A stretch of DNA of 64,000 nucleotides from Paenibacillus antibioticophila (GTDB lineage: Bacteria > Bacillota > Bacilli > Paenibacillales > Paenibacillaceae): contig NZ_HG005140.1 of assembly GCF_000455265.1 (NCBI RefSeq), positions 702,751-766,750 on the forward strand. Direction: 5' to 3'. Positions 6,315 through 57,005 of the stretch are shown one piece after another. The position numbers were made by a program, and so were the translations under genes. The stretch's first letter is position 1, and the number at the start of each line of letters is the position of its first letter. Under the pieces are notes generated by a model. It worked only from the letters and a program-made list of their open reading frames with translations, searched no databases and was not told where the DNA came from.

Positions 6315-6315
6315 G

Positions 6316-7101
6316 ATGTGGAAAATCATGCTTGTAGATGACGAAACAATTATTCGACGCGGGTTGAGGCAGTTCATTGAAAGCAGTCACTCCCCCTTCA
6401 CTGTCGTTGCAGAAGCCAAAAATGCAGGGGAAGCTTTGCAGCAATTGGACCAGCTGCCTGCTCACGTCTGCTTCATTGATATTAATATGCCGAATATGAA
6501 CGGACTCGATCTAATCAGCTTACTGCACAAGCGGTTCCCTTCGATGGTGGTGGTCATTATTAGCGGATATGACAATTTCGAATATGCGCGTCAAGCCGTG
6601 CAGCTGCAGGCATTTGACTATGTCCTGAAGCCAGTCCCCAAGAGCGATCTGGAACAGCTTCTTCATCGTCTGGATACCCATCTGCAGCAGAAATTTCCGG
6701 ATCAGTCCCATACAAGGGCATCACAGGATACACCACTTCCCCATCGTATGATCTCCGGCGGCGACGGTACACTCTTGATCTACAAGGTAACGGAGTATAT
6801 CAACGATCATTATCAGGATCCCGAGCTAACCATCACCCGAGTAGCCGACTTATTTCATATGAATCCAACCTATCTCAGCAAGCGGATGAAGCAGGAGACC
6901 GGGCTCTCTTTTCTGGATTATGTAACCGGGCTAAGAATAGCCAAGGCCAAGGAGGTATTGGACGATGCAGCCTCCAATATTCGAATAAACAGCCTCGCCA
7001 CCAAGGTAGGCTATAAGAGCCAATACTATTTTAGCCGCGTGTTCAAAAACAAGGTCGGGCTGTCTCCGCTGGAGTATAAAAATAGGGGGCGGGGGGATTA
7101 G
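6316..7101 (+). CDS. YesN-type response regulator (REC + AraC HTH)
   Basis: A 261-residue regulator paired with the kinase just upstream. The receiver domain (1-~120) has the acidic pair in MLVDDE, the phospho-acceptor Asp55 in CFIDINMPNMNG and the conserved Lys105 in DYVLKP. The C-terminal ~100 residues form an AraC/XylS double helix-turn-helix (ITRVADLFHMNPTYLSKRMK, then INSLATKVGYKSQYYFSRVF). Family members activate neighbouring genes when phosphorylated. The divergent lipoprotein flavin reductase is the obvious candidate target; this is inference. An upstream in-frame ATG at 6292 would overlap the kinase, so ATG 6316 is preferred; its Shine-Dalgarno is weak, consistent with translational coupling. 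Confidence 0.88.
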   Translation: MWKIMLVDDETIIRRGLRQFIESSHSPFTVVAEAKNAGEALQQLDQLPAHVCFIDINMPNMNGLDLISLLHKRFPSMVVVIISGYDNFEYARQAVQLQAFDYVLKPVPKSDLEQLLHRLDTHLQQKFPDQSHTRASQDTPLPHRMISGGDGTLLIYKVTEYINDHYQDPELTITRVADLFHMNPTYLSKRMKQETGLSFLDYVTGLRIAKAKEVLDDAASNIRINSLATKVGYKSQYYFSRVFKNKVGLSPLEYKNRGRGD

Positions 7102-7253
7102 ACGAGCTTTAACTATGAGCAAGAGAGAGGCTTGCAGAGCTTGAATACCTCGCAGCACAGTACAGCAATGATTTAATTACTATATCTATCATCCCGGATC
7201 AAGTATCCTTTGATGTAACAGATGAACGCAGTATATAAAGAGGTGAAATGATT

Positions 7254-7805
7254 TTGGCAACCAGACGTTTCCGCGCTTATGCAACGAAAGAAGATTTATA
7301 TGCTGTCTTCACTCAACTTCAAGAAAATTTGAAGGTTTATTACACGCCCACGTATTCAGACATAGGTGCTATTCAGATTGATGATATTACTAAAATTGAA
7401 ACATTCGGTACAAATCGCTATGGCAGTCATATTGGATATAATCAATTTCTTGTATTTCATGAACATCAAAAATGTGTATGGAGACAGTATCAATGCAAAA
7501 GTGAGCATGGTGTAAGAACCAGATATTCTTCTCACTGTGATGAAAATCAAGAATACATTGATATAGATTTGGGTGGAGTACACCAGTCTGCTGCTCTTTT
7601 CCCTACGACAATCAGTACCATACATTATGATGTTGAAGCTTCAAAGGAGCTATATAATAGCATTCGCAAAATTTTCAGGAAACTTTCTGTGAAATCACTT
7701 AATGGTTATTTCATATGCCCAAATGCATATGAGAAACGGGCGGATTTTCGATTCTGTATTATTGATATCAAATCACCCGTCGAATACGATTTTAACGTAG
7801 AATAA
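7254..7805 (+). CDS. hypothetical protein, AT-rich orphan
   Basis: A 183-residue protein that I do not recognise. It has no membrane segment or signal peptide. It contains many Tyr, His and Cys residues but no clear metal motif (HEHQKCVWRQYQC and SSHCDENQEYIDID are the most distinctive stretches). The mixed beta-strand pattern suggests a small globular domain. Start: AGGTG at 7241-7245 is only 2 nt from the ATG at 7248 but 8 nt from the in-frame TTG at 7254, so TTG is preferred. Base composition is clearly more AT-rich than the flanking genes. It sits beside a broken gene and a duplication scar, which suggests acquired or unstable sequence. Confidence 0.6.
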   Translation: MATRRFRAYATKEDLYAVFTQLQENLKVYYTPTYSDIGAIQIDDITKIETFGTNRYGSHIGYNQFLVFHEHQKCVWRQYQCKSEHGVRTRYSSHCDENQEYIDIDLGGVHQSAALFPTTISTIHYDVEASKELYNSIRKIFRKLSVKSLNGYFICPNAYEKRADFRFCIIDIKSPVEYDFNVE

Positions 7806-7825
7806 AATAAATTTATGCAGCAGGA

Positions 7826-8562
7826 TTGCAGGTTATATGTCAGAAAAGGATACTGTAATACTTCCCAATAGATAACATTTGTTGTGATTGTGTTCGGATC
7901 ATTATCAAAGTAAACAGCAATCGAAAATGGCTCTAAAATAGGATCGGAGACGGTACTTTCCCAGGTTATTCTCCCTGCCTTAAGCAAAATATTAGAACGA
8001 TCCCCTATTGTATACTGACCCATGGCAACCGCCTTACCACTTTCAATTTTTACAACAGTATGCGTAAGGCCATCATTAACTCATACATATCTGCTTTTCC
8101 TTCAGGGAAACGATAAGTCACATCTCTTCTTGTAGCAAATCCAATCGTCTTAAAATCAGCCACTATGGGGAGAGAAATCGCTGCTTTACGAGCCGATACT
8201 AAATCAGACGGGTCTAGCACATCAGTGTTCAAAGTATGCTCTGAAGATATCACGAAGATGATGTTGCGAATGGTTTCATAATGCATTTGATAGCCCATGC
8301 TTTCGGAAACAAATCGAATAGGTACGAGCACACGACCGTGCTTACTTTGAGCAGGAACACTCATTTCAATTCGTTTTCCATTTTTATAAGCAATGTTGCT
8401 CTCTGGGGTAATAGTTAATACATCACCAGAGGTATTCTTAATTGTCACTGTCCTAGAATTTGCATCCCAACTATTGGACAAGCCCAAAGAAGTAAGCGTA
8501 CGAATAGGAATCAGTAGACTTAACATTAATTTCATACCATTTTACATTGCTGCTGGTTGCCG
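7826..8562 (-). pseudogene. broken copper amine oxidase-type stalk-domain protein
   Basis: The first open part (8050-8535) encodes LLIPIRTLTSLGLSNSWD and GRVLVPIRFVSESMGYQMHY, two halves of a copper amine oxidase N-terminal-like stalk domain; both show the VPIR...E.LG signature. Near 8076 the frame breaks: the protein continues in another frame as GLTHTVVKIESGKAVAMGQY, and one extra A in TTAATGATGG would restore it. The N-terminal signal peptide and start are missing, with an in-frame TAA just upstream of the first Met, close to the scar at 8572. Stalk domains normally carry cell-surface proteins in Paenibacillus. The C-terminal limit is uncertain, so the left boundary is approximate. Confidence 0.65.
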
Positions 8563-8571
8563 CATAAGGAA

Positions 8572-8624
8572 CGGTATCAGGCGATGTATTGCGGACTGTG
8601 CCGCGTGCTTGATGAAAGACATGG
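8572..8624 (+). pseudogene. 53-bp fragment of the DUF5685 gene
   Basis: 53 bases are identical to 23484-23536 in the DUF5685 gene and would encode [19 protein letters not shown] few more matching bases lie to the left (ATAAG at 8564, versus 23476). To the right the similarity ends abruptly and a run of G follows near 8641. Both copies point the same way and flank the whole tail module, so this is a recombination scar, a remnant of a second gene copy, or one arm of an att-like duplication. Confidence 0.75.
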
Positions 8625-42671: not shown

Positions 42672-45600
42672 TCAATCATTACCGGAATCCGTAGGCCGTT
42701 CGGTGTTGCCGGAAGACTCTGCATTTCCCGCTCCATCTGTACGGGTAGAATCCGGTGAATCTATCTCCGGGGATGTCCACGCCTTTACCTTGTAATTTAC
42801 TCCGTTCACTTGAATTACACTGCCCTCAGGCACTGCTTGATCCAGCACCACGGTAACCCGCCCTGCATACTGATCCGGGCTTGTCTTGCTCTCCTTCGGA
42901 AGACCGGCATTGTTGTCCTCTCCATCGGAAACCGCGGTCCCTGCAGCTGTTCCAGACTCGGATTTCCCAGTCTGATCCGGTTCGCCGGTACTCTCTCCGG
43001 CAGCATCTGCTTTGTCTTGATCTGCAGCCTCGCCATCAGTTTCATCCGCCGCATCTATGTTGTTTTGATTTCCTGCCGTATCACCGGCTTCATCCCCGTT
43101 CTCAACCTGATCCGTAGTTCCATTTTCAGTTGTCGGGGCTCCTGAGGTTCCTGAGGTACCCGAGTTATCCGAGGTACCTGAGTTACCTGAGCTACCTGGG
43201 TTACCTGAGTCACCTGAAGTATCCGGTGTGTCCGCAGCGTCTGAATCTTCCTGCTTCGGAAGCGCACATCCGCTCTCATAGTTCTGTATCGGCACCACTT
43301 GCGGATCCAGGCCCGGCGCTGTAAGCGTCAGCTCGGTCGGTGTGAACACCGTGCACTGAGCCAGATCATCAAACGGGAAAATCAAGCGTGTCTGCTCTTT
43401 TTCACCGTCAGCCACGATCAGCTTCTCGGCAAAGACAATCTGTTCTTCGGCAGTATTCCCTTCGTCCGCCACTACCGGAGGAGTCTCAGGCAACGGATCT
43501 GCCTTTCCGATGATGCCGGTCTGTTTCAGAACCAGCCAGCTCGCCGCCACAATCAAAATCAGCAGCACCATCATCGTAGAACCCATCATGACCGTCTTCC
43601 GATTCCCGGAAAAAAATCGGCTCACCGGCGACGACAGCTCCAGCTTTGCCTTGTTGAGCACCGTGCTTAATGCCGGGCCAGCCTTGGCGAAATATTCACG
43701 GCGGTTTTCCCGGCTTTTGAATGCATTTTTATCATGCCGTTTGAAATAAGCCAGAATTGCCGCAGCATAAGCAGGCACCAGGCCGCGCGGGCGGGTAAAG
43801 CTCGAATCGCTCTGCGACCACAGCAAGAACTTGTAAATTATATTCTTATCCGCAGCATTTCTGCGCAAGTAATCCAGCAACGCCCCATACTCTACAAATC
43901 CGGCATCCGACTCCCGGAAGAAAGCAAGCGCAATTCGCGGAAATTCAGCCGTTTCGATCTCGCCCTGCAGCCATTTCCGGGCCGTTTGCTGGACCCGGTC
44001 TGTCTCCATCGGTCCAAGTCCGGCGAAGATCTCGGCCTCCGGCTTCGGTTCGGTGAACAACCGGTACAGCGCATGAAGCATGACGGCATGACTGCTCAGT
44101 CTGGAATCCCGCAGTTCTTTGGCCGGGCGGCTTAAATCATGCTGTCTCAGAAATTCGGCCCCTACCACCTGTTCTTTCGTCAGCCTGTCCAGATCCAATT
44201 CGCTAAGCAGCAAACGAAGAGCCGACGAGGTTAGCAGCTCGGTCATGCCGGAATTTTGGAAGACCCGCTCCCTCTCCGGGACTCCGGCATCCCACTTGCC
44301 TATCTCCTTCATCACAATATCTGCAGCCCGCAGAAGCTGGTTCGCACTTCGGAGCTTGTCCATCAGCCGGGTTCGGCTCAACTCCTGAAAGGAATGATTT
44401 TGCAGCACGAACGGGAACTTCTTTCCCCAGGCTCGAATCAGATTCAAGAGTGCTTTCAGATCGGTTGCCCGCTGAAACTTAGCCCGAATATACGGATCGA
44501 ACAAGACCGTCATCAGCCGCTCACTATTCAATACGTTCGTGAAGAAGGCGGCCTCCAGCCCGGTATGTCCTTCAATAAGCGTATAGAAGGCATCCGCCTC
44601 CTCTTGCCGCTCCTGTGTCATAGCGTTGTGCAGCGCAAGAATATAATAGGAGACAATCTTGTCCTCCTGTCCCGCACCAGGCAAGCCGAAATAATCGCGG
44701 AAGCACTCTGCCACAGCAGCAGGCGGGATATGTCCCAGCCTGTTAAGATCAAATTCCCGGTCAAAGCGGGAAAGGAAGAGATCATTCAGCCTCATCCGGG
44801 CATCCAGCCCGCCAGGCGGCTTCAAATATTCCAATAAGCCCCGAAGAACCGTAACCTTGTTCTCTTCGTATAGAGACTCTTCACCGCGCTCGATCCGGTA
44901 ATATACTGCCAACTCATGATAGCTGGATAAGGCCGACTTCCGTTCGCCCTCCATGCCGGACAGCATTTCATCGGCAAAATCAAAAAATCCTTGAAGCTGC
45001 TCCTTCTGCTCTAAATGGCTCCATACGAAGTCCAAATAAGGCTGACGGGACCAGTCCGCATCAATCTGCCCAAATCGCCCGGCTGCCAGATCAAAAATAT
45101 AGTCTTTCTCGATGCTCCGGTCATGCGGGCGCAGGCTGCCCTTCTCCACAAATTGCACTTGAATAAACTTCCGGCTCTGCGGCTCCTTCACATAGGATAG
45201 AAATCCAAGCCGTCTGCGATGTTCATAGGGTAGACAGGAATATACAATTTGCATTAACGAGAGGGCCTCTCTCGAGATATCTTCAACGGGGACATCCAGC
45301 GAGATATAAACCTTCTTCCGTCCTTCGCCGGAAGCGGTCATGACCGCAAACAGCAATTGCTTGAATAGCTGTTCGTCAAACCCCAGGCGCTCCAAAGTTT
45401 CCTTGGCGGAAGCATGTCCAAGCGCAGCATCCGCAGCCGCTCTTGTCGGGACTTCGTCCAGCTCAGCCAGCTCTGTGCCGATCTCCGGATCATAGCTATC
45501 CGCAAATGACGCGTCGAGCCAGGCACTAAAGCTCTCAGTTACTTCCCCGGAACGGCCCGAAGGAATAATGTAGTTATGCGTTAAAAAGGCGCTTCGCAGC

Positions 45601-45890
45601 CCCGTGAAATCCACCGGCTGATAGATGCTCCGTCCCAGTACCGTCTCTCCGTTCTCTGCATGAAACAAGTGAACGGCCTCCGGATACAGCGCTCCATCCT
45701 TCTCGCTGCGGGATACAAGCTCCGCCGGCGCATCATACATACAAAAAGGGTGGAGCACCTTTTTAATAAATGCGACATCCAGCCCGGACGATTTGGCTAC
45801 CGTATCAAAGCCTTCCGTGGAACGAAAGACACCCTTCCGCTCCCGGGTATACATCTGCTGCTGGATGCTTCCTGGAGAGTTCGGCTTCAA
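42672..45890 (-). CDS. GAP1-like (GTPase-associated protein) membrane protein with external Ser/Gly tail
   Basis: 1072 residues, the longest-reaching component of the system. Residues 1-~260 resemble GTPase-associated protein 1 N-terminal domains ([60 protein letters not shown]). Residues ~270-760 are helical with no known domain ([20 protein letters not shown]). One membrane span lies at ~767-790 ([15 protein letters not shown]). Outside there is a small beta domain, a Ser/Gly/Asn/Asp low-complexity tail (~885-1000) and a final beta domain ([20 protein letters not shown]). TTG 45890 shares TTGA with the stop of the GTPase gene, so both are made together. Probably the membrane effector or anchor of the GTPase; no enzyme motif is seen. 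Confidence 0.7.
43141..43222 (-). repeat. 9-bp tandem repeats coding a Ser-Gly-Asn/Thr tail
   Basis: About nine degenerate copies of a 9-base unit (plus strand CCTGAGTTA-like) encode the external Ser-Gly-Asn/Thr repeats of the GAP1-like protein. Such units expand and contract by slippage, so tail length may vary between strains. Confidence 0.75.
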
Positions 45891-47149
45891 TTCGCTTCTC
45901 TCCCCTCAATGTATTTCAGTTGATACAAGAGCCAGATAAAGGGCTCATCCACCCGGATCGGGCTAACCACGCCCTGGAGCTTCTGGTCGATAGGGTTGCT
46001 GCCAAGCGCGGAGACGGCGAAATACGCGGTGTTCTTGAAGTAAACGTCCATCGTTCCCTTGAAGGGCCGATCCACCTTTTCAATAAAGCGCCGGATTTCG
46101 CCGTCGATATTCTCGAATTCGGTAATATTGAATGTCTTCCGGTGCACCACATTGTTGAAGACGTTACTATTCGACTTGATATACTCTCCGTCCTCGTCAC
46201 TGAGCGCACGAAGCATGTCGCTCTTCGTCAAGACGACGGCTGTAGGAATATCGGTCTTCCCCTTATCCTCATAAGCGATGAAATCCCCGAACATGGTCAG
46301 AACGACATCGCGCGGCTCATCGTACTGGGATACCCATTCTCCCGGCTCGGTGCCAAGATTGATCCGGATTCGTTCCCGGATGGAACGGATCTGCAGCGGG
46401 TCGACCATGAATAAAATACCGGAGGAGTTCTTAATATGCTGCCCCTGCAGTCCAAGATAGTCCTGATCCACCATGCCCTCACCGGCTACATCGAAGAACA
46501 CCAGCGTCAGCGGCGGCTTACTCTCGTCCTTGAAGACGAATTGGAAAATAAACGGCTCTTGCATCCTCTCCTTCTGGGTGGAGGCAAGCAGATCGCCCCG
46601 TTCAAATAAAGGCTCCTCATACATACTCCGGAACTTACGGCTAATCTCCGCATTCAGCGGCATACAGGCCGCATCGAAATGATCTGCGGTCGTATTTTGC
46701 AGCGTATGGATCAACGAGGTCATATAGACCGATTTCCCCACCTGGGAAGCTCCAATAATGGAAATGATATTGCTCGGCACTTTGCCTGCCGTGACCGGCA
46801 GCTCGTTGTGGCAATGCGGGCACAGTCTGCGCCGGGTCACAATGCCATAACGGTCGTTCAGTCCGATCAGAACATGATCCGAGTAAATATGATGCTCCTC
46901 CGGCACCTGTCTGGGGTGGATAATCGCCTCCAGATCATAGACCGTATCCAATCCGAAGCGCTCCCGGTATTTATTCAGCTGCTCATCCTCGCCCAGCGCG
47001 TAATCCTCATCGTCCTCCCGGTGATGGGCGGCACGAAAGACAACGGCCTCCGGTGAAAATTTGCTGAAGCAAAAAGGACAGACAATATCGTAAAATAACG
47101 GACGCGGCGCGTCCTGCGTTTTTTTCTTGAAAAGCTCGAAAAGGCCCAT
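45887..47149 (-). CDS. zinc-ribbon TRAFAC-like GTPase
   Basis: 420 residues. A split zinc site precedes the G domain: CPFC (24-27) and CPHC (110-113). The G domain has the P-loop IIGASQVGKSVYMTSLIHTL (133-140 GASQVGKS), switch II VFFDVAGEGMVDQD (DxxG) and base-specificity motif AVVLTKSDM (NKxD variant TKSD, ~308-311). This resembles the TRAFAC/double-GTPase proteins that accompany GAP1 proteins in predicted ternary conflict systems. No membrane segment. The stop overlaps the GAP1-like start, pointing to a physical complex. ATG 47149 after AGGAGG. Confidence 0.82.
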   Translation of the reverse strand: MGLFELFKKKTQDAPRPLFYDIVCPFCFSKFSPEAVVFRAAHHREDDEDYALGEDEQLNKYRERFGLDTVYDLEAIIHPRQVPEEHHIYSDHVLIGLNDRYGIVTRRRLCPHCHNELPVTAGKVPSNIISIIGASQVGKSVYMTSLIHTLQNTTADHFDAACMPLNAEISRKFRSMYEEPLFERGDLLASTQKERMQEPFIFQFVFKDESKPPLTLVFFDVAGEGMVDQDYLGLQGQHIKNSSGILFMVDPLQIRSIRERIRINLGTEPGEWVSQYDEPRDVVLTMFGDFIAYEDKGKTDIPTAVVLTKSDMLRALSDEDGEYIKSNSNVFNNVVHRKTFNITEFENIDGEIRRFIEKVDRPFKGTMDVYFKNTAYFAVSALGSNPIDQKLQGVVSPIRVDEPFIWLLYQLKYIEGREAN

Positions 47150-47175: not shown

Positions 47176-47814
47176 CTACTGTGCAATAAGCTCATAGAAT
47201 TGCCCGTATTTGCGGCCATCCGTAAAGAACAGCCGGACATAATCGTTCTTGCCTACCTCAATGACAGGCAGGGTGTTTTTTCCCGGGGCAAAGTCGTGCA
47301 GGAAGTGGTACACGGTACCATCCTCCCTGTTCGCCGGATAGCCGCCCTGCTTCTTCACATAGCAGAGCACATCCTTTGCAACCGCCGCCTCGGCCATCAC
47401 TTGAATCTGGATACTCTTGTACTTGCGGAACAAGTTGTTCTTCTGGGAGATCGTATAGAAAATGCGGGCCCGGCCGGCATTTACAGTCAGCCGGTTCCTT
47501 CCATCCTGCTGAAGGACAAGCTCCAGTTCATCCTCCTCCATCAGACCGGCATAGACGGTGTACTGCACCTGTCCGATCTCTTCGAGACGATCCCGATAGC
47601 CGCCGGAGGCCTTGTATTCCTCGCGCGTATACAGCTTCAGGTCTGCTTCGTCAGGCATCCTGTCGGCGGTGCTATCGGAGACCGGACCCTTGTGAATGTA
47701 TACAGCCTGAACCCCTTCGGGCCAGCGCCAGCGCAGGCATACCCGGTCCTCATCCAGGCTGTGGGTCATATCCCGGATGGCCGGGGTGGATGATGTAGCG
47801 TCAATAACCCGCAT
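47176..47814 (-). CDS. small beta-sandwich-like protein of the tubulin/GTPase operon
   Basis: 212 residues, not recognised. The start region (SLDEDRVCLRWRWPEGVQAV, YIHKG) looks like the A-B strands of a fibronectin III-like sandwich, repeated weakly later (RLTVNAGRARIFYTISQKNN; KSIQIQVMAEAAVAKDVLCY; NDYVRLFFTDGRKYGQFYEL). No signal peptide or membrane segment, so it should act in the cytoplasm, perhaps as an adaptor between the vWA protein encoded just upstream and the GTPase encoded just downstream. ATG 47814 follows AGGAGGAGAG; a longer frame upstream overlaps the vWA gene. Confidence 0.65.
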   Translation of the reverse strand: MRVIDATSSTPAIRDMTHSLDEDRVCLRWRWPEGVQAVYIHKGPVSDSTADRMPDEADLKLYTREEYKASGGYRDRLEEIGQVQYTVYAGLMEEDELELVLQQDGRNRLTVNAGRARIFYTISQKNNLFRKYKSIQIQVMAEAAVAKDVLCYVKKQGGYPANREDGTVYHFLHDFAPGKNTLPVIEVGKNDYVRLFFTDGRKYGQFYELIAQ

Positions 47815-47836
47815 ATTCCTCTCTCCTCCTTGGGTT

Positions 47837-49120
47837 CTAGAATCCCCGGTTCTGGTTCTCGCCCTGACGTCTGCCGACCGCATTTCCTGCGGATCTGGCA
47901 CCGCCGAATCTGCTGCGACGTTCCGATATTCGAGGCTGGTTATCCTTGACTGGCACCACGAGCGTGAACAGGGCAATGACGGCGGCCAGGATCAGGCAAG
48001 CCAACAGGCGAATGATCCCATCCGGGAAGTCAGCTCCGGATAGTCCGAACTCCAGAAGCAGTCCGGCCAGCACGCCGCCTGTGGCCCCGCCGATACTGAA
48101 GCTCTTGGCAAGATGGCGGTTATCAAACAGAACTCCTAAGCCCAGTCCAAGCGCAGCACCGAGCAGGATCACGAACACAATGCGAAGAATCATATAATAG
48201 CTGCTGTTCTGTGTAACTCCGGTTCGCTCGGTAACCAATGTCCGCTCTCCGATATTGTCATAGATTTTCTGAAAGGCAAAGGACAACTGATCCGCCTCGC
48301 TCACATCCTGATATTGTCCGCCTGTAACGGCTGCAATCTCCTTCAAGAGTTCGGAGCCCTCCGGATTATCCAGGCCGAGTCCGATCGTGTTGACCGCCAC
48401 CCCGCTGCTCTGATATTCACTAAGCACACCGGAAGGATCTACCTCGCTGAATCCGTCGGACAGCAGAATGACAAGCGTTCCGCGCCGGGAGGTGCTTCGT
48501 CCCTGAATCTGCTCCATCGCCTCATTGAGAGCAAGATTGAAGTTCGTCCCGCCCTGCATCGGCTCCATTTCATCCAGTCTGGAGTACACCTCATTTTTAA
48601 CTTCCTGATTCTTCAGTCTCACAAAAGGCTGCAACAGCTGTACTCTGTCATCGAAGACGACAATGGCTGCTTCCTTGTCCTGATCCATTTTGCCGATCAG
48701 CATCTTAGTCGCTTCATATCGGTCGCCATTCGGATCATTAACATCCATACTGCCTGAATCGTCAATCACGAACACAATGTTCTTTACCTGCTTCGCTCCG
48801 TTCAAGTTCAATTCATAGACAAACTCCAGGAGCGTCCCCAGCGCAAAGAGCAGCACCAGCGTCGCAGGCACCAGCAGCTTCCATGAAGCGCCGACATATC
48901 TCTGGCGCCAGGACGAGCCGTTCAGGCGGGGCTTGATCATCTCTGCGATCAGGCAGGACAATCCGACACATAGTGCAAGAATGCCGAAGTACAGCCCGAT
49001 CAGGACGATGCTCGGCACCTCTCCGGATAGCTGATGCAGCAGCACTTCGCCGATCCCAAAGCCGATGGCCCCTCCGATCAGACTGAACAGCAGCAGGAGC
49101 AAATTGATTTTTCTCGTCAT
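47837..49120 (-). CDS. polytopic membrane vWA protein
   Basis: 427 residues. Three N-terminal spans (~5-25, 36-60, 80-102) are followed by a von Willebrand factor A domain (~112-290) with an intact MIDAS: VFVIDDSGSMDVND (DxSxS), MQGGTNFNLALNEAM and LVILLSDGFSEVDP. Three more spans follow (~315-340, 345-365, 372-395) and a basic Arg/Gly tail. Depending on topology, the vWA domain would face outward or inward; an even number of spans after it brings the tail to the same side as the N-terminus if the counts are right. vWA domains bind partners through a metal ion and often assemble membrane machines. Confidence 0.82.
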   Translation of the reverse strand: MTRKINLLLLLFSLIGGAIGFGIGEVLLHQLSGEVPSIVLIGLYFGILALCVGLSCLIAEMIKPRLNGSSWRQRYVGASWKLLVPATLVLLFALGTLLEFVYELNLNGAKQVKNIVFVIDDSGSMDVNDPNGDRYEATKMLIGKMDQDKEAAIVVFDDRVQLLQPFVRLKNQEVKNEVYSRLDEMEPMQGGTNFNLALNEAMEQIQGRSTSRRGTLVILLSDGFSEVDPSGVLSEYQSSGVAVNTIGLGLDNPEGSELLKEIAAVTGGQYQDVSEADQLSFAFQKIYDNIGERTLVTERTGVTQNSSYYMILRIVFVILLGAALGLGLGVLFDNRHLAKSFSIGGATGGVLAGLLLEFGLSGADFPDGIIRLLACLILAAVIALFTLVVPVKDNQPRISERRSRFGGARSAGNAVGRRQGENQNRGF

Positions 49121-49156: not shown

Positions 49157-51532
49157 TTAACGAAGCTCAGGCAGTCTTGCCGGATCCAACCCATGGAGCT
49201 CATAACCATTCGCAACGTAGCTCTCGTAATACACCTTGCCGTTCCGGTAGTACATCAGATCCTCCAAATGGAACCCGCCCATCAGATTCAGCTTCACAAT
49301 TCCGCTGCTCCGCTTCTCGTGCACCCCGCCCAGCTTGTAAATCCTTGAAGACTCATCCACGCTGAATACATAGCGGACAAATTCGCTCTCCACATCGCCA
49401 AAGACGTACTTCTCCTCGTAACGATGCTCCTGTGTATAATCATACAGGCGCAATTGAATAGCCGCCCGGTCCTCCAAGGTTCGATACAATTTCTTAAACA
49501 GGTCGTCCTTCGACAGGACCTCCTTGTTGTTGTATTCGATCGTGACATTCGAGCGCTGCAGCAGCTCCTCCTCGAAGGAGAGCTTGAAATACGGGGAGGT
49601 CAGGATATGCTCCCGGCATGCCTTTATCAGCTTCGTTAAAAAGCCTTCGGTGCCTTGCTCCAGCAGCTCCCTTTGGTTCCCAAGCAGCCGATCCTCGAAA
49701 AAGGCTCCCGCTCCCCGTTTAGCCTTCAGCTCATCCGTAACACGCTTGGTCACCAGCTCATAATACTCCATAATGTTCTGGCCGATATAATCATCAGCCC
49801 AAGTTACACTTTCCTGGGCAGATGCTCTCAGCAGCTGCTCCAGGCTCTCGAACTGATGTATTTTCACCTCGCAGCGTTTATGGAATGCTTCAATCTCCGC
49901 CTCGTATCTGGAGATCAGCTTCAGCTTGATTTCCAGCATTAATAGATCGCGCTTTCGATAATAAACACTCCGGAACAGCTCGGAAATGAAGCTTCGCACA
50001 TTACGCTTATCCATGAACGGCACCTTTTTGAAAGGAAGCTGCTCGACTCTTCCCTCATAGGCCTGTTCCAGCTCGAAGCGCGCCAGCTCCAGCTCGCGCT
50101 GGGTCTCCCGGTACAGATTCTGCACGTAAGGAAGAAGTCCGCCCTCCTCCTTGCGTTCTCCGCTCCAATGATATAGCTGAAATAAACCAATCATCGGCGT
50201 TGCCGACGTGCGGCTCCGCAGCTCGTTCTCCAGCTTCGCCGCTACATCCAGCTGCTCCAGTCCGTGCCGGGCAGGGTCCTCATAATTACTCCGGAAGAAG
50301 GCTCGGCAGCCTTCGCCATACAAAGCCTGCTCGGCTTCACGAAGCGACATTTGGCGTAGGGAGGCATAGCTCACCTCATGCGTCATGAGCGCGTGCATCT
50401 CGGATATCGCCTCGACATCGGGTACGAGCCGCGCAGCCTGCTCTTCGAAGGCTGCCGGGTGGACGCCGAACATGCTCAGCTTCTCCTGCTCGCCGATCTC
50501 CGGTTCCTCCGCCATATCTGCCTTGAGCTGACGCAGAAAGTGATACAGCACTACCAGCGCAATCGATTGGTTCGGCCGCTTCACCTTGGCCATCCCCGCA
50601 GAGACATATCCTTGGCGTCCTGATTCCGTCATTACATTATTCTTGAACGAAGTATTATTGTAGCTGCCACTGCCAGGGCCAAAGACTTGCTCTTTGTATT
50701 TCCTGTTCTTCAGCAGACTGATATGGCTAATCATCTCATAGCAGCCTTGCAGCTCGTCTGCGGCCAGCAAGCCCCGCTCATTGCGATCGGATAACACATA
50801 GACCAGATCAAAAAGCGGCGAGGCCTGATGCGTCACCGGGATCGAGATCCCGTCCTCTGTGACGTGCAGAGGAGCCGAGAAGCTGTAGTCAGGCTGCTGC
50901 ATATAATCAAGCTCTCGCAAAAAGGCTACGCCCGCCGAGCTGCCATAACCGAAAGCCTCCACCTGCTCCCGTTCGCTAATCAGTGCATACAGGTCCATCT
51001 GGACAGACTTGAAGGACTGGCCCAGGATCGACTTCGCCAACAAGGAAAGCTCCTGTACAAACACATTAAGCGGGTCATCGACCCGCGTAATGACAGAGAG
51101 ATGAATCCGGTCGAACGAAGCATATAACCGTCCGTACTCCGCAATATGGCTGCTGACCTGACGGAGCGTCCGGTTCAGCTCGAACCAGCCTTGCCCGCTG
51201 TCATACAGCTTCCGGTACAGCTCGGCGCGAGCCTTCTTGGGGTCGCCGCCTCCCTCGGTTCCTGCAAGAACATGGCGCTTAACCGCAGGGGACTCCTCTG
51301 CTTGCACAGAGGCTCCTCCTGCGGTCGTCACCCACAAATACATGACACCGCGGCTGTTATCCCACTTGCGGTCATGAATTTCTTTCATCGCCCCGATGGC
51401 CTCGCCTGCCTTGTCTCCAATAAACAAGTACAGGGCAGGATAATGGATACTGCTCTGGTCATCGCCCTGTCCGGCCAACCGCTCCTCGGCGCGGTCATAA
51501 TCAAGTGCAAATCGCTCCAACTGCTGCTTCAT
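49157..51532 (-). CDS. tubulin-like paralogue lacking nucleotide-binding loops
   Basis: 791 residues. It aligns by eye with the tubulin-like GTPase encoded 3 bases upstream. YPALYLFIGDKAGEAIGAMK (31-50) stands where the GTPase has PILIIGLGGTGIDALLRLK. IHLSVITRVDDPLNVFVQEL (143-162) replaces the GTP loop TGLSGGTGSG. AFLRELDYMQ matches ALKELDYWM, and PLFDLVYVLSDRNERG matches PPFNLCHLISATNTEG. The glycine loops are gone, so it should not bind or hydrolyse GTP in the usual way. The C-terminal half (~330-791) is helical with long coils (RNLYRETQRELELARFELEQ; SISELFRSVYYRKRD-like). Inference: a pseudo-tubulin partner that caps or dimerises with the active one. Confidence 0.7.
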   Translation of the reverse strand: MKQQLERFALDYDRAEERLAGQGDDQSSIHYPALYLFIGDKAGEAIGAMKEIHDRKWDNSRGVMYLWVTTAGGASVQAEESPAVKRHVLAGTEGGGDPKKARAELYRKLYDSGQGWFELNRTLRQVSSHIAEYGRLYASFDRIHLSVITRVDDPLNVFVQELSLLAKSILGQSFKSVQMDLYALISEREQVEAFGYGSSAGVAFLRELDYMQQPDYSFSAPLHVTEDGISIPVTHQASPLFDLVYVLSDRNERGLLAADELQGCYEMISHISLLKNRKYKEQVFGPGSGSYNNTSFKNNVMTESGRQGYVSAGMAKVKRPNQSIALVVLYHFLRQLKADMAEEPEIGEQEKLSMFGVHPAAFEEQAARLVPDVEAISEMHALMTHEVSYASLRQMSLREAEQALYGEGCRAFFRSNYEDPARHGLEQLDVAAKLENELRSRTSATPMIGLFQLYHWSGERKEEGGLLPYVQNLYRETQRELELARFELEQAYEGRVEQLPFKKVPFMDKRNVRSFISELFRSVYYRKRDLLMLEIKLKLISRYEAEIEAFHKRCEVKIHQFESLEQLLRASAQESVTWADDYIGQNIMEYYELVTKRVTDELKAKRGAGAFFEDRLLGNQRELLEQGTEGFLTKLIKACREHILTSPYFKLSFEEELLQRSNVTIEYNNKEVLSKDDLFKKLYRTLEDRAAIQLRLYDYTQEHRYEEKYVFGDVESEFVRYVFSVDESSRIYKLGGVHEKRSSGIVKLNLMGGFHLEDLMYYRNGKVYYESYVANGYELHGLDPARLPELR

Positions 51533-51535
51533 GTC

Positions 51536-54500
51536 TTATTTCAACCTTTTCCGGATATCATTCAGTTGAGATGCGATCTCTTTGTAGAATTGGTACATAT
51601 CCTGACCATTGGCCAGCTCGACCTTCTCATATTCCAGCGCATCCCGCGCTTCAAGGAAGTTCACGGTCAACTCATCCAGCTTGGACAGCAGCGGTGTGAT
51701 GTCCTCGGAGGAAGTCATTTCATTCGCACGGCGCGAGGATTTCCGCAAGAGTGCGCTCCGGCTCTTATCATCCAGTCCCCGGAAGTGAACAAACACCTCA
51801 TACTCGGCATAATTGCGCGTCTTCATCAGATTCGCAAACGGCTCCCAGGCCTCTTCCTCGGCATCGCGGTCATAGACATACAGGGCGCCCTTCTTCACGA
51901 TTGTACTGGTGTACATCGCTTCAAGGAATTGCTCCAGCAGCTTCTCTTCATCCCGGAATTGTCCGAGCAGGCTTTCCAGCTTCGCAGCCATCTCCTGAAT
52001 GGCCGTATATTTCGCCAGTTCTACGCGCACGGCTTGAATCAGCTCCGGCGAACGGATCAGATTCTCCTGCGCCATCTCCTCGTTAATGCTGCCGAAAATG
52101 TCCTTCGAAGCTACGAGCTCCAGTCCATCGGACAAGAGACGCTTCAACTCGGTATAGGCCGCTTTGACCTCACCCAGGTTCGGCTTCGGCGCATCCAGTC
52201 GCATATCATATTTTTGCAGCTGCTTGTTCAGATCGAACGGCACGGTCTGCACCACGGCATAACGGCTGCTTGTATTCTGATCCATGCCCTTCTCGACAAT
52301 CACCTTGAACTCGCGGGCACTGGCAAATTCCCCGCGTACCCGGGAGTTGTAGCTCTTCACCCGCGGATTCATATAGACATCGCCCCAGGATCTTTCCGGG
52401 ATCGGGGAAGGCAAATACGTCCAGTTGTTCTTCTCGGTCTGAACCAGATGGCGTCCGATGCCTTCCTTCTCCAGAATCGTGCGCTCGTAGCTCTCCTCGT
52501 ACACCTTCAGCGGGGTGTAGACAAAGAGCGGAACTCCGTTCCGGGTGTTCAGCCAGAAGATCCGGTTCTTGACTTCACTTTCCTTCACGGTGAAATGCGA
52601 TTTGCCTACCGCGTTATTCTGATAATTCCGAATTCCCTTCAGGATGCTTGGCGCCTGCACGGGCACCGATACAAATCCCCAGGCCGGGAAATTTAGATTG
52701 CCTGTGCTGTTTGATAGATGGAAGACCGGCACGGCCTCTTCGTCCAGCTTGCTGGCAATCTGGCGCTCCACAAACTTCTCAATGGACTCATCCTGTCCGT
52801 ATTTGATAATCAGGAATTCTTCCATCGACTTTGTAATCAAATCTCCGAACTTGTCACTGAGGAAGGAAGAGATCGAGTTGACGATATCGATTTCCTGCTC
52901 CTTGATCCATTGGCTGGAATGATTCAGCAGCTCTGAAGAGAAATCGCGAATCAGATCGTCGACATCCTTTTGATCCATCAGCTGGTTGACCAGCTTGGAG
53001 ATATCAGGAACGCTCACCAGGTTCCAGTAATAGGTTTTGTTTCCCTTATGATCGGTTTGCTCCTCGCCATTGATGAGAATATCCCCGTTCTTGGCAAAAA
53101 TCGAGCTAAGCGCATTCAGCACCTCAGTAAACACGTTATAGATCCGATTGTTCTCCGAGTTAAGCAATTCATACAGGTCTTCATAGAACTCGATTAATTG
53201 CTCGGTCCGCTCCACATCGGCATGAAGCCAATATTCGTTGATCTTTGCTTCAATATAGAAATTTTTCTTCTTTTCCTTGGAGACGAAGGCGCTCTTCGCA
53301 TCGCCCAGCTTATCATTGGCTTGCTCCTGCGCAGCCTCAATATCGCGTGGAATGCGAAGCAGATTCTCCCGCAAGGCCTCAATGTAGGACAGGATCATTT
53401 TCAAGAGGCAGAAGCCCTTCTCGGTGTAGACAAGCCGGGATACATAGAATGGCCCCTGCTCCGGATGCAGGAACAGACGGCGCACCTGGTCACGGAACTG
53501 CTCCATGATTTCACCCGGGAGCTGCTTCTTCGCCTTGATGTACTCCTCGCGTGCCCGGGCCAGGAAGTTCTGCTCCAGCTCAGTATCGATGTTAACGACC
53601 TGTGATTTCACCACATTGGCATGGCTCAGCCGTTCGCTGTTCTCAAAGCCGGGCAGCGGCTCCGGTACGCGGGATTCAAAGGTCTTGGCCATGCTGTCCA
53701 GATCAAGCCCTAGCTTGCGTGCAAACTTCTCCACATCCTCCTGGCTCGGAGCCTTATGGAACATGCCCTCCATCTTGTCAAACAAGCGGTAGGCGAGATA
53801 CGTCGTCATCTCTTCAATCGGCAGCACCGCGGAAGAGGCCCCGATAATGTTGTATTCATAGTTGGCCGGATACTGCTTATTCATCTGCGCAATATTCGTG
53901 CGAATGTTGCTGATATAGTCATGGATAGCAAATTCTTCGCCGGACTGCTTCTCCTCGCTGGCCATGAAGTTTGTAATGTTCTCGGCGGTGACGTTCATAC
54001 AGTAGTCGTAAGCATTCTCCAGCAGCTTGCCCTCTGTATTCGTCGCAGAGATCAAATGGCATAGATTAAACGGAGGCAATGGAGAGTTCACCGTCAAAAT
54101 ATTGCCGTACTGCTGCTTGAACCGCTCGCCGCGGCTATCGACGTTCATCCAGTAGTCGAGCTCCTTGAGCGCAGCATAACCGTTCTTCTTGATGTACTCC
54201 CGGGTATGCTCGCTCAAGCTCTTGTTCGAGAGGTTGATATCCGGCGTGAACAAGTAACCAAGTGTGTTCACCCGGTCAATCCCGGCCGACCCGTGGTCGC
54301 GCTCAATAATTCCCCGCACAATATAGGCGATGTCCAGGAAGCAGCCGCTGCCGGTTCCGCCCGATAAGCCGGTGAGCAGGAAGACCATCAGCTTTTTATT
54401 CGTGCCTACAGACAAGGTTTTGATCTTCTTATCGATCGCTTGGACCACTTGTGTAATCTTCGTGAACAAGAGCAGTCTGCCCGCCTGGCGGACGCCGGCT

Positions 54501-54925
54501 GCGCCGTTCATGCCGTCCGTGATGCTCAGCTCGGGCGACAGCCATTCCGTAATATAAGGCTCCAGAATGCTGCGATTTTGCAGCAACCCGCCGATCTCAG
54601 CGTTGGACAGCAGAACAAATTCATTGATCGGGTCCAGCCCGATTCCTTTGTACTTCTTCGTGCGGTCTTGTTCATTCGTCTCAAAGGCAAGAAACTCTAC
54701 ATTATCCGGCTTCTCGCGCTTCTTCTTGGACAGCGGATCCTCCGGCAGACGGAATCTGCGGTTAATCTGATATTTCAAACGAAGCAAGGCATCGATCCCC
54801 GTCCCGCCAAGTCCGATAATCAGAATCGGGTTGTCGATCGTGTCGACCCGGATCTTGTCGCTGACAATACCGCCGCCTAAGGATACGTCCAATTGTTGAA
54901 TATGCTCTCTTACTACGGGCTTCAT
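51536..54925 (-). CDS. tubulin/FtsZ-like GTPase (Tubulin_2 type)
   Basis: 1129 residues. The N-terminal ~400 residues are a tubulin-like G domain: NPILIIGLGGTGIDALLRLK (loop T1, 38-43), FLAFETNEQD, MNGAAGVRQAGRLLLFTKIT, the tubulin signature FLLTGLSGGTGSGCFLDIAY (T4, 185-194) and HLISATNTEGKLLENAYDYC. The remaining ~700 residues are mostly helical with long coiled-coil stretches (AQEQANDKLGDAKSAFVSKE; ELKRLLSDGLELVASKDIFG), far longer than FtsZ. No membrane span. Proteins of this type are found with vWA and GTPase genes in Bacillota and actinobacteria; polymerisation is expected but unproven. ATG 54925 follows GGGGGAAAC. The partner pseudo-tubulin starts 3 bases after its stop. Confidence 0.85.
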   Translation of the reverse strand: MKPVVREHIQQLDVSLGGGIVSDKIRVDTIDNPILIIGLGGTGIDALLRLKYQINRRFRLPEDPLSKKKREKPDNVEFLAFETNEQDRTKKYKGIGLDPINEFVLLSNAEIGGLLQNRSILEPYITEWLSPELSITDGMNGAAGVRQAGRLLLFTKITQVVQAIDKKIKTLSVGTNKKLMVFLLTGLSGGTGSGCFLDIAYIVRGIIERDHGSAGIDRVNTLGYLFTPDINLSNKSLSEHTREYIKKNGYAALKELDYWMNVDSRGERFKQQYGNILTVNSPLPPFNLCHLISATNTEGKLLENAYDYCMNVTAENITNFMASEEKQSGEEFAIHDYISNIRTNIAQMNKQYPANYEYNIIGASSAVLPIEEMTTYLAYRLFDKMEGMFHKAPSQEDVEKFARKLGLDLDSMAKTFESRVPEPLPGFENSERLSHANVVKSQVVNIDTELEQNFLARAREEYIKAKKQLPGEIMEQFRDQVRRLFLHPEQGPFYVSRLVYTEKGFCLLKMILSYIEALRENLLRIPRDIEAAQEQANDKLGDAKSAFVSKEKKKNFYIEAKINEYWLHADVERTEQLIEFYEDLYELLNSENNRIYNVFTEVLNALSSIFAKNGDILINGEEQTDHKGNKTYYWNLVSVPDISKLVNQLMDQKDVDDLIRDFSSELLNHSSQWIKEQEIDIVNSISSFLSDKFGDLITKSMEEFLIIKYGQDESIEKFVERQIASKLDEEAVPVFHLSNSTGNLNFPAWGFVSVPVQAPSILKGIRNYQNNAVGKSHFTVKESEVKNRIFWLNTRNGVPLFVYTPLKVYEESYERTILEKEGIGRHLVQTEKNNWTYLPSPIPERSWGDVYMNPRVKSYNSRVRGEFASAREFKVIVEKGMDQNTSSRYAVVQTVPFDLNKQLQKYDMRLDAPKPNLGEVKAAYTELKRLLSDGLELVASKDIFGSINEEMAQENLIRSPELIQAVRVELAKYTAIQEMAAKLESLLGQFRDEEKLLEQFLEAMYTSTIVKKGALYVYDRDAEEEAWEPFANLMKTRNYAEYEVFVHFRGLDDKSRSALLRKSSRRANEMTSSEDITPLLSKLDELTVNFLEARDALEYEKVELANGQDMYQFYKEIASQLNDIRKRLK

Positions 54926-55205: not shown

Positions 55206-57005
55206 CTACACGAGGTATTCGATAAAGATTGTCTTATCTACGCTGCTTAGCGGCAAGGTGATCCGGTCTCCACTCTTGAGCTCAAGACCCTTGCTGGTAT
55301 CAACGGCGCGACCGGACCTCTCCACCGTACCGCCGCTCTTGCTTGTCAGAATAATTCTGTCATTGCTTCCCGGAGTAAATATCATGTCTTCGGTCTCTTT
55401 CAGCTCCGGTGCGAGCTGCAGAAGCTGGTGAAGGGTGAACTTGCCCCGGAAGGCTGTTAACTTCTTATACTGCGGGTACGTCTTATCTCCGGTATTCTCA
55501 TCCCGGATCTCGAGAACGATCTGTCCGACAAATCCGCGGTTGCTCTGCTTCATCTTATGAAGCAGGAAGTAGCCGACGGCAAGCAGAACAAGGACTCCCA
55601 GAACACTCAAAATTACCGGCAGCAGCGGAAAAGGCTTCTCTTCTCCGGTTCCCGTCTCTTCCGGAGCCGTTGCCGGAGGGGGCGTAGTAGCACCGCCCGG
55701 TTTGGCCGAGATATTCACCGCCGGACTCTCGCGGTAAAAGCTCTTCTCCTCGGCCCTTACCACCAATTCATATTCATGCTCTTCGGGAATCTTGTACGTT
55801 CCTTCAAATTTGTCGCCGGTATTGGTCAACGGTATCTCTTCCGTCGTTCCGGCATCGAGATCCTTGACCTTCAGAACAGCGGTCATATTCTTATACATCT
55901 CTGCATCGGCAAGCTTCTGTCCGTTGCTTGTAAGATAAGAGGATACGGCAATCTCGTCCCCTTGCTTGTAGGAGGACGAAGGCAGCGGCTCCATGGCCAG
56001 CTCCAGATCATAGTTGAAGACAAGGTTAATATCAATTTTGTCCTTCGATACTCCCTTAACCTTAAGCGTCCAATCTCCTTCACTCGGATTGAGCAGCTTC
56101 AGTAAGGAATAGCTCTTCGACTTGGTCACCAGCACCTCGTTCGACGGAATCGCCACCGCATTGCCGGAAGGGTCGATCAGCTCTGTCTCTACCGGCTGGG
56201 AGGACATGATCGAGATGTTCGCCTCCAGCACATTCGCATTCGGAACATTCACCGTAACCTCTTGATAGTTGCCGGTTCCTGTCAGACTCTGAATCGGAAC
56301 AATTTTCAGCTTCAGATGGCTGGCGAAGATCTCGCTCAGAATTTGCGGCAAATCCTCGGCGGAACTAGTGGAGAACGACTTTGCCCCGGTCTTATCCGAC
56401 AGCTCGGCCAAGGCCTCTTTATTCAGCTTGCCGTCTGCATTCAGGCCAATCGTATAGATCGGGATACCCGCTTGCTTGGCTTCCTCTACTGCGGCGTCCA
56501 GCTCTTGGTCGGATTGTGCTGCTGTCCGGCCGGATGCCTTATCAAAATCATTGTTGCCGTCAGCAAGCAATACGATCATCGGATCATGATTCGGATCAGC
56601 GCCGTTCTGAAGCACCTTGATCGCTTCCTTTACCCCTACCGCAATATCGGTATAAGGTCCGCGGTCCAGGCCGTCGATAAACTGCTTCAGGTCTTCTTTG
56701 TCACTTTGGGTATTGATCTCCAGCAGCGCCTTCTCTCGCTGGATCTTGTCGGTATACGCAACAATACCTACTCTGTCTCCGCTTACCGACAGCATATCGA
56801 TGAACATCTTCATCGCTTCATTGCCGATCTTATTTGTATCACTCGTATTCATGGAGTTGCTGACATCCACGACAAGCACAGCGTCAATCTGCGAGGCCTG
56901 TCCATTTGCTGCATATGCGCCCTGCACGTGAAGGCTGGACAACATCAGCAGCATGGCAAGCAAGATGAGCAGCACACTGGAAGTCGATTTCTTTCTCTTG
57001 GACAT
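55206..57005 (-). CDS. secreted, membrane-anchored vWA protein
   Basis: 599 residues. Signal peptide 1-32 (MSKRKK, then a leucine-rich core, ending AYA). An extracytoplasmic vWA domain (~38-225) has an intact MIDAS: VLVVDVSNSMNTSD, DRGPYTDIAVGVKEAIKVL, IVLLADGNNDFDKASG. Two Ig-like beta regions follow (~240-440: NVLEANISIMSSQPVETELI; DKFEGTYKIPEEHEYELVVR), a Pro/Thr linker, one membrane span (~459-483) and a ~116-residue cytoplasmic domain with an FHA-like strand pattern (DRIILTSKSGGTVERSGRAV; LELKSGDRITLPLSSVDKTI). It thus links an outer metal-binding adhesion domain to the cytoplasm, where the tubulin, pseudo-tubulin and GTPase are encoded downstream. ATG 57005. Confidence 0.85.
   Translation of the reverse strand: MSKRKKSTSSVLLILLAMLLMLSSLHVQGAYAANGQASQIDAVLVVDVSNSMNTSDTNKIGNEAMKMFIDMLSVSGDRVGIVAYTDKIQREKALLEINTQSDKEDLKQFIDGLDRGPYTDIAVGVKEAIKVLQNGADPNHDPMIVLLADGNNDFDKASGRTAAQSDQELDAAVEEAKQAGIPIYTIGLNADGKLNKEALAELSDKTGAKSFSTSSAEDLPQILSEIFASHLKLKIVPIQSLTGTGNYQEVTVNVPNANVLEANISIMSSQPVETELIDPSGNAVAIPSNEVLVTKSKSYSLLKLLNPSEGDWTLKVKGVSKDKIDINLVFNYDLELAMEPLPSSSYKQGDEIAVSSYLTSNGQKLADAEMYKNMTAVLKVKDLDAGTTEEIPLTNTGDKFEGTYKIPEEHEYELVVRAEEKSFYRESPAVNISAKPGGATTPPPATAPEETGTGEEKPFPLLPVILSVLGVLVLLAVGYFLLHKMKQSNRGFVGQIVLEIRDENTGDKTYPQYKKLTAFRGKFTLHQLLQLAPELKETEDMIFTPGSNDRIILTSKSGGTVERSGRAVDTSKGLELKSGDRITLPLSSVDKTIFIEYLV

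Follow-up and report, generated by a model that had tools for sequence, protein, structure and literature searches.

In the window, that is, the whole 64,000-nucleotide stretch of Paenibacillus antibioticophila DNA analysed here, a gene for a tubulin-like GTPase (A) lies next to one for a 791-residue protein (B) that, judged by sequence comparison, is a diverged homologue of A's Tubulin_2 domain, and from which the T1 and T4 GTP loops have been lost in all 65 orthologues compared. Taken as a whole, the best explanation, to which we assign a probability of about one half, is that B is related to A, has been retained, is probably free of nucleotide and works as A's partner. A partnership is suggested because the two proteins are homologous, because both loops are missing from every orthologue of B compared, because A and B are inherited together, and because B evolves under purifying selection.

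The gene pair and its cassette

Both open reading frames of the first-pass annotation, and the sequence blocks that it quoted from them, are present as it described them, with the two frames separated by 3 nt (Table 1). The gene for A starts at an ATG, and a TTG further upstream would add 7 residues. Its product scores 260.3 bits against a Pfam Tubulin_2 cut-off of 27, has intact T1 (GLGGTG) and T4 (GGTGSG) loops, and carries a long C-terminal part; its AlphaFold model reaches a pLDDT of 40 and shows long helices at low confidence. The divergent Tubulin_2-type domain of B spans about residues 30–340 and is followed by a helical region, with long helices modelled at 508–580, and by a C-terminal region (about 650–790) rich in invariant positions. 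In the surrounding cassette, the DO-GTPase (PF19993, 29.8 bits, cut-off 27) and both GAP1 domains (PF20013, 151.6 bits; PF20014, 102.1 bits; cut-off 24) exceed their Pfam thresholds. Homologues of the 212-residue protein occupy the same gap at 28/28 Paenibacillus loci compared, and neither Pfam nor NCBIfam gives a match at E ≤ 0.1 for the frame that contains it (47176–47976).

Table 1. Genes of the tubulin cassette, in window coordinates.
Feature	Coordinates	Strand	Evidence
GAP1 (GAP1-N2 + GAP1-M); TM segment and polar C-terminal tail by eye	42672..45890	-	Pfam
DO-GTPase; N-terminal CxxC pairs by eye	45887..47149	-	Pfam DO-GTPase2, above cut-off
Conserved 212-aa protein between TM-vWA and GTPase genes	47176..47814	-	Homologues
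Second vWA protein; several TM helices by eye	47837..49120	-	Pfam vWA, conserved place
B, 791-aa pseudo-tubulin	49157..51532	-	ORF, Pfam, MAFFT, hhalign, AlphaFold model
A, tubulin-like GTPase, 1129 aa	51536..54925	-	Pfam Tubulin_2 (FtsZ-like 1), E 4e-77
vWA protein; signal peptide, TM segment and cytosolic C-terminal part by eye	55206..57005	-	Pfam vWA

The first-pass annotation knew of no such pair in this type of cluster, a statement that does not hold, since Firmicutes GAP1-N2 neighbourhoods with two tubulin-domain genes, both fused to a C-terminal coiled coil, have been described, together with two vWA genes, one fused to YtkA and the other with TM helices (Kaur et al., 2020; eLife 9:e52696, PMC7159879); the role of these systems in conflicts with invaders is there a prediction. 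The window cassette fits this description in its DO-GTPase, a GAP1-N2 protein with (by eye) a polar tail, two vWA genes, with TM segments read by eye, and two adjacent tubulin-domain genes, of which A stands above the Pfam cut-off and B is recognised at the profile level. The vWA gene at 55206–57005 is the positional counterpart of the vWA-YtkA gene, in a conserved place, and no YtkA match is listed for it in Pfam. In the excerpts of the article consulted, no distinction is drawn between the two tubulins and a lost nucleotide site goes unmentioned, so that the pair is already in print and the loss of the site in its second member is absent from those excerpts. A itself belongs to the FtsZ-like 1 family, the Tubulin_2 family of Pfam (Makarova and Koonin, 2010; PMC2875224), with which it shares an N-terminal tubulin domain bearing the GTP loop, a long C-terminal part and proximity to vWA and GTPase genes. 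B differs from that family in lacking the GGGTG(S/T)G loop and in falling below the Pfam cut-off, and no protein of its kind is described in the consulted portions of that text. Among the literature matches listed, in which subscription literature is thinly covered, no paper was recognised as describing a dead tubulin partner.

Relationship of B to the Tubulin_2 domain

The similarity between B and tubulin-like proteins emerges at the level of families. Pairwise BLAST of A against B is not significant (E 0.025), and the Pfam Tubulin_2 model matches the window copy of B with E 3.5e-4 and 20.4 bits, below the 27-bit cut-off; among the B-type matches listed, only G678 is flagged as exceeding it (25.7 bits, 27 with neighbours). 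At E ≤ 0.05, however, the same model matches 20 of 28 Paenibacillus orthologues of B (best E 6.2e-6) and 11 of 21 proteins in a second, more divergent set (best E 1.1e-5), the window copy belonging to both sets.

Profile–profile comparison likewise shows more resemblance than chance would give. Against a diverse Tubulin_2 profile, B obtains an hhalign score of 49.4 (E 8.3e-6, probability 84%), compared with a maximum of 26.8 over 200 column shuffles and 14.8–20.4 for four other cassette families used as controls. The signal becomes clear only once six Tubulin_2 proteins from outside the cassette join the profile: against these six B scores 41.2, while against the cassette A proteins only it scores 26.5 (at most 24.0 in 100 shuffles), near noise, as is the comparison of Paenibacillus-only profiles (E 0.037). 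The significant region covers residues 196–341 of B, and the half that carries the T1 and T4 positions is weak on its own, scoring 25.4 where the best of 100 shuffles reaches 23.7. The T1/T4 register of B rests on weak local scores together with an unguided MAFFT alignment. In that alignment of B with Tubulin_2 proteins, the blocks that had been quoted as equivalent do fall in order and in register, with FIGDKAGEAI placed under GLGGTGIDAL, FLRELDY under LKELDYW, VITR-VDDPLN under LLTGLSGGTGSG, and FDLVYVLSDRNERG under FNLCHLISATNTEG. No homology is claimed for the C-terminal parts of the two proteins, which score 29.9, with 25.2 as the highest value among 60 shuffles. A PDB sequence search with the B profile returned nothing at E ≤ 1, and one with the A profile returned five unrelated weak matches.

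On the tubulin fold expected of B in the first-pass annotation, structure prediction points both ways. The ten best VIA-align matches of the AlphaFold model all belong to the tubulin superfamily (TubZ, CetZ and FtsZ, Z 7.3–8.8), led by TubZ (Z 8.8 over 157 residues at 3.9 Å) and CetZ (Z 8.5 over 132 residues at 3.1 Å). The model is nevertheless modest, with a mean pLDDT of 61 and values below 50 for residues 173–317; eight of those ten matches (Z 7.3–7.6) count, under the rule that the tool itself applies, as ties with unrelated Rossmann folds (Z 7.2). Foldseek yields no match at E ≤ 0.001, with FtsZ and TubZ appearing against the PDB at E 0.3–0.9 only.

Replacement loops, co-occurrence and selection

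In the window copy of B, FIGDKAGEAI stands in the T1 position and TRVDDPLN in the T4 position, and the loss of both GTP loops, as first annotated, extends to all of its relatives compared. These comprise 65 distinct sequences, with exact duplicates and frames shorter than 700 residues left out; the set hence lacks 13 of the 57 first loci, among them L055, whose frame is too short. None of the 65 has GGTG in the T1 stretch, a GGTG(S/T)G-type T4 signature (GGTGSG is found in 48/48 A proteins), a Walker A motif, or a partial tubulin signature (at least 5 of 7 letters) at T1 or T4. Partial signatures of 5 or 6 letters do occur elsewhere in 11/65, mostly within variable or inserted stretches, and somewhat less often (7%) in shuffled sequences. 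The segment GPGSGS (residues 285–290 of the window copy) was considered as a substitute GTP loop and rejected because it is not conserved among B proteins. The replacement loops, by contrast, are conserved as GDK and DDPxN motifs (G39 65/65, D40 60/65, D153 65/65, P154 62/65, N156 59/65), as is E161 (64/65). At a T7-like stretch, B has Asn in 61/65 sequences where A has an invariant Asp (48/48); read by eye in the alignment, this Asp is found in only 3/6 Tubulin_2 proteins from outside the cassette.

The two genes occur in the same 95 of the 197 genomes of the window's family, across which the cassette is patchy, and B is present in 68/68 genomes of three further families that have a full-strength Tubulin_2 match. 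The two frames are found together at 57/57 first loci and at 20/20 more divergent ones, where the DO-GTPase and GAP1 are present too, and this co-inheritance keeps to one gene order. In all, both genes are found in about 160 genomes. Frames for A were required to have at least 1000 residues, alignment A1 is without L055, and alignment A2 is without L034, in which A is cut by a contig end, and L060. In L055, G007, G629, G689 and G732, B seems to be interrupted or in fragments. Some Tubulin_2 genes of other lineages have no recognisable B next to them, and ten neighbours of distant Tubulin_2 genes, scanned for hidden pseudo-tubulins, gave no Tubulin_2 match at E ≤ 0.05; the domain therefore does not always need such a companion. 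A search of plasmids with B gave no match.

Against three relatives, the dN/dS of the tubulin region of B is 0.04–0.10, indicating purifying selection, and because of this constraint B has, at the sequence level, the look of a pseudo-GTPase that is being maintained and not of a gene in decay. Of three parts of the protein, residues 651–791 have the lowest dN/dS in two of three comparisons (0.024 and 0.021), with synonymous change saturated in the second and no value computable in the third. Mean pairwise identity is 60% for B (45 sequences) and 86% for A (28 sequences), so that B evolves much faster, a pattern equally compatible with a filament subunit and with a sensor or adaptor.

Candidate roles of the pseudo-tubulin

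Paired tubulin paralogues that go together are familiar from alpha/beta-tubulin and from BtubA/BtubB, where both subunits bind GTP. A and B resemble these pairs in their paralogy and differ from them in that B has no recognisable GTP loops; because B carries Asn at the invariant T7-like Asp of A, the logic of alpha/beta-tubulin may also partly fail here. The likeness to eukaryotic catalytic/non-catalytic pairs drawn in the first-pass annotation is an analogy. In the partner model, A would bind GTP and assemble as a filament or oligomer, and B would dock on it through tubulin–tubulin faces, its conserved DDPxN loop set where GTP would otherwise sit. As a non-exchangeable, non-hydrolysing subunit, B might then act as a cap, nucleator or adaptor, setting the place and time of A assembly. 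The assembly would presumably form beneath the membrane, where both membrane vWA proteins would be linked to it and the cassette's own DO-GTPase/GAP1 switch would gate it, and its output could be an anti-invader response or membrane remodelling. A stricter version, which we put forward tentatively, holds that A and B form an obligate heteromer in which the DDPxN side chains of B replace GTP, the T7-like acid has become Asn, and B is a permanent cap. The B-bound ends of A would in that case neither exchange nor hydrolyse GTP, and a cap built of protein would control an assembly linked to the membrane, with the DO-GTPase/GAP1 switch as its gate.

Other readings account for parts of the same evidence. 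B could conceivably, though this is unlikely, be a dead copy, derived from tubulin, that serves as a decoy or sensor: it would bind an invader protein directed at the tubulin family and signal to the DO-GTPase/GAP1 switch. The faster evolution of B and the patchy distribution of the cassette (95/197 family genomes) would suit such a role, as would the inactive domains and decoys discussed for related systems in the excerpts of Kaur et al. (2020; PMC7159879), but purifying selection and ordered, conserved motifs in B speak against it, and the PADLOC matches listed are weak (E 0.015 or worse), with none on A or B. The conservation of the replacement loops, with D153 in 65/65 and D40 in 60/65 sequences, could also reflect a second switch, a tubulin fold that binds another ligand or a metal through its GDK and DDPxN loops; we consider this rather improbable, as no known ligand signature, Walker A included (0/65), was recognised, and conserved Asp residues may equally be structural or lie at an interface.

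The low dN/dS of residues 651–791 in two of the three comparisons and their many invariant columns would be expected if B were a structural scaffold only, with the tubulin-like part as a remnant and with its function carried by the helical part together with the C-terminal region. That the tubulin-like region is itself constrained, with invariant positions over several bacterial families, makes this poorly probable. It is very improbable that B is unrelated to tubulin and that the similarity reflects chance or a generic Rossmann-like arrangement: the BLAST and Pfam scores, the Foldseek result and non-tubulin Rossmann folds reaching Z 7.2 would allow for it, but not readily the Tubulin_2 matches across both sets of orthologues, the profile–profile score with its shuffle and family controls, or a list of structural matches whose best ten are all of the tubulin superfamily.

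If B is indeed the nucleotide-free partner of A, the two would constitute a tubulin pair of natural origin, one of whose subunits has been stripped of nucleotide binding, and this loss would have persisted in three bacterial families as well as in one genome of a fourth. Such a pair would offer a clean system for asking about the role of a non-hydrolysing subunit in a tubulin pair, and a predicted class of bacterial gene system would thereby gain a specific first experiment.

Family-level homology and predicted fold

Although a single-sequence comparison between A, the 1129-aa tubulin-like GTPase, and B, its 791-aa putative pseudo-tubulin neighbour, cannot decide homology (pairwise BLAST, E = 0.025), matches to family models support it. 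Pfam Tubulin_2 matches the window's B at residues 201–336 (E = 3.5e-4, under the Pfam cut-off), and matches at E ≤ 0.05 are found in 20/28 Paenibacillus B orthologues (best 6.2e-6) and in 11 of the 21 members of a more divergent B set (best 1.1e-5), the window's B being counted in both. In hhalign, 65 B proteins scored 49.4 (E = 8.3e-6, probability 84%, B 196–341) against a profile of cassette A proteins and six Tubulin_2 proteins from outside the cassette, compared with at most 26.8 in 200 column shuffles and 14.8–20.4 for four other cassette families. B scored 41.2 against the six outside proteins alone and 26.5 against cassette A proteins alone (26.1 on repeat), the latter near noise (≤24.0 in 100 shuffles). 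The tubulin likeness proposed in the first-pass annotation is hence recovered at the family level, and B is very likely homologous to the tubulin domain.

The AlphaFold model of B (28 sequences) is modest, with a mean pLDDT of 61 and residues 173–317 under 50. In VIA-align, its ten top-ranked rows all belong to TubZ, CetZ or FtsZ (Z 7.3–8.8), but the first non-tubulin fold follows at Z 7.2; only the top two rows exceed it by more than 1, and the other eight, lying within 1 of it, count as ties under the VIA-align rule. Foldseek alone returned no match to the model at E ≤ 0.001. The suggested tubulin fold is favoured by the identity of the best rows and held back by the ties, the Foldseek result and the quality of the model; a detailed tubulin fold for B appears likely.

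Nucleotide site and rate of change

The reported loss of the T1 and T4 GTP loops in B is borne out across the family: GGTGSG is present in 48/48 A orthologues, and a signature of this type in 0/65 B proteins. Partial matches covering 5 or 6 of its 7 letters are found in 11/65, none at T1 or T4, and Walker A in 0/65. In an unguided joint alignment, a GDK loop of B aligns with the T1 GGTG of A, and TRxDDPxN with T4. These replacements are themselves conserved (G39 65/65, D40 60/65, D153 65/65, P154 62/65, N156 59/65, E161 64/65). The T1/T4 half alone scores 25.4, barely over shuffles (≤23.7), as expected if the motifs carrying the signal are gone. At the T7-like stretch, Asp in 48/48 A proteins aligns with Asn in 61/65 B proteins, in a register that is less secure because Makarova and Koonin (PMC2875224) were unable to locate T6–H7 confidently in the FtsZ-like 1 family and, by eye, the Asp is found in just 3/6 outside proteins. 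These sequence patterns strongly predict that B does not bind GTP.

The tubulin region of B shows dN/dS of 0.04–0.10 against three relatives, and that of A 0 and 0.01 against two, with synonymous change near saturation except in the comparison with Paenibacillus brevis, the nearest named relative among the matches listed (L033; B 97% identical). Pairs of B sequences are on average 60% identical (45 sequences), compared with 86% for pairs of A sequences (28 sequences).

Co-occurrence and gene neighbourhood

Within the window's family, searches for A at E ≤ 1e-30 and for B at E ≤ 1e-5 pick out the same 95/197 genomes. A further 70 genomes outside the family, each with a Tubulin_2 match that exceeds the cut-off, were searched for B, which is present in 68/68 of those matching at full strength (E of 3.2e-66 or lower); in the two that lack B the match is weak and partial, at 36 and 28 bits. 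By family, the 68 divide into 47 f145 genomes, 20 f168 genomes and one f158 genome (G901, 8% contamination listed), and the count denotes presence per genome, with position checked in part (the G709 matches sit on different contigs). Across 398 sampled genomes of the phylum, B occurs in 7, all with A, and three more carry distant Tubulin_2 proteins only. The A and B reading frames were both found in 57/57 first loci. In 20/20 more divergent loci (18 outside the family, two within), A and B share a strand with TM-vWA (short in L103), DO-GTPase and GAP1; the outer vWA gene is present in 19/20, the L107 contig stopping before its place. B is apparently interrupted or fragmented in L055, G007, G629, G689 and G732.

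Cassette genes of the window in order of transcription, followed by an antisense open frame
Feature	Position	Strand	Remarks
vWA protein	55206-57005	-	First transcribed
A	51536-54925	-	Second
B	49157-51532	-	Third
vWA protein with TM helices (TM-vWA)	47837-49120	-	TM helices by eye
Conserved 212-aa protein	47176-47814	-	Between TM-vWA and DO-GTPase genes
DO-GTPase	45887-47149	-	
GAP1	42672-45890	-	GAP1-N2 and GAP1-M domains
516-aa open frame	51146-52696	+	Antisense over A/B junction; probably a by-product of composition

Downstream of GAP1 lie hprK, lgt and ppaX. The 212-aa protein has homologues in the same gap in 28/28 Paenibacillus loci compared; it is a candidate for the FNIII-like component described by Kaur et al. 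(PMC7159879), although domain searches gave no match to any family.

On Allomeiothermus silvanus plasmid pMESIL01 (L120, 5781-15209), vWA, Tubulin_2 and 686-aa genes, the last without a convincing family match, are grouped; next come an IS701-type transposase and the BREX gene brxL. In L121 (6079-13566), a distant Tubulin_2 protein (6079-8607) precedes an NYN/LOTUS-domain protein, a clostripain-family peptidase and a HerA-like helicase. On Azospirillum sp. TSA2s plasmid p2 (L119, 7824-14788), a tubulin-like gene adjoins two opposite-strand caspase-family genes, with OmpA-family genes nearby.

Published descriptions and possible roles of B

The first-pass remark that no established description was known for such a pair in this kind of cluster gives way to Kaur et al. 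(2020; PMC7159879), whose available text describes this Firmicutes cassette of two tubulin-domain, two vWA, DO-GTPase and GAP1-N2 proteins, the last with a polar tail, and classes it as a predicted conflict system. The FtsZ-like 1 family is the subject of Makarova and Koonin (2010; PMC2875224), who, in the portions available, propose a role in membrane remodelling; in the available passages of a 2023 phylogeny (PMC9871819), Tubulin_2 proteins are treated as a separate group, both divergent and sparse. Nucleotide-site loss in the second tubulin is not stated in the main-text passages available from these three papers.

B may be a decoy or sensor, may bind a different ligand or may be a mere scaffold. 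The economical reading, with a probability of about 0.5, is that B would be an obligate partner of A, serving as its cap, nucleator or anchor, since B would keep the tubulin shape without nucleotide and is found only alongside A, which would itself act as the GTP-using, assembling subunit.
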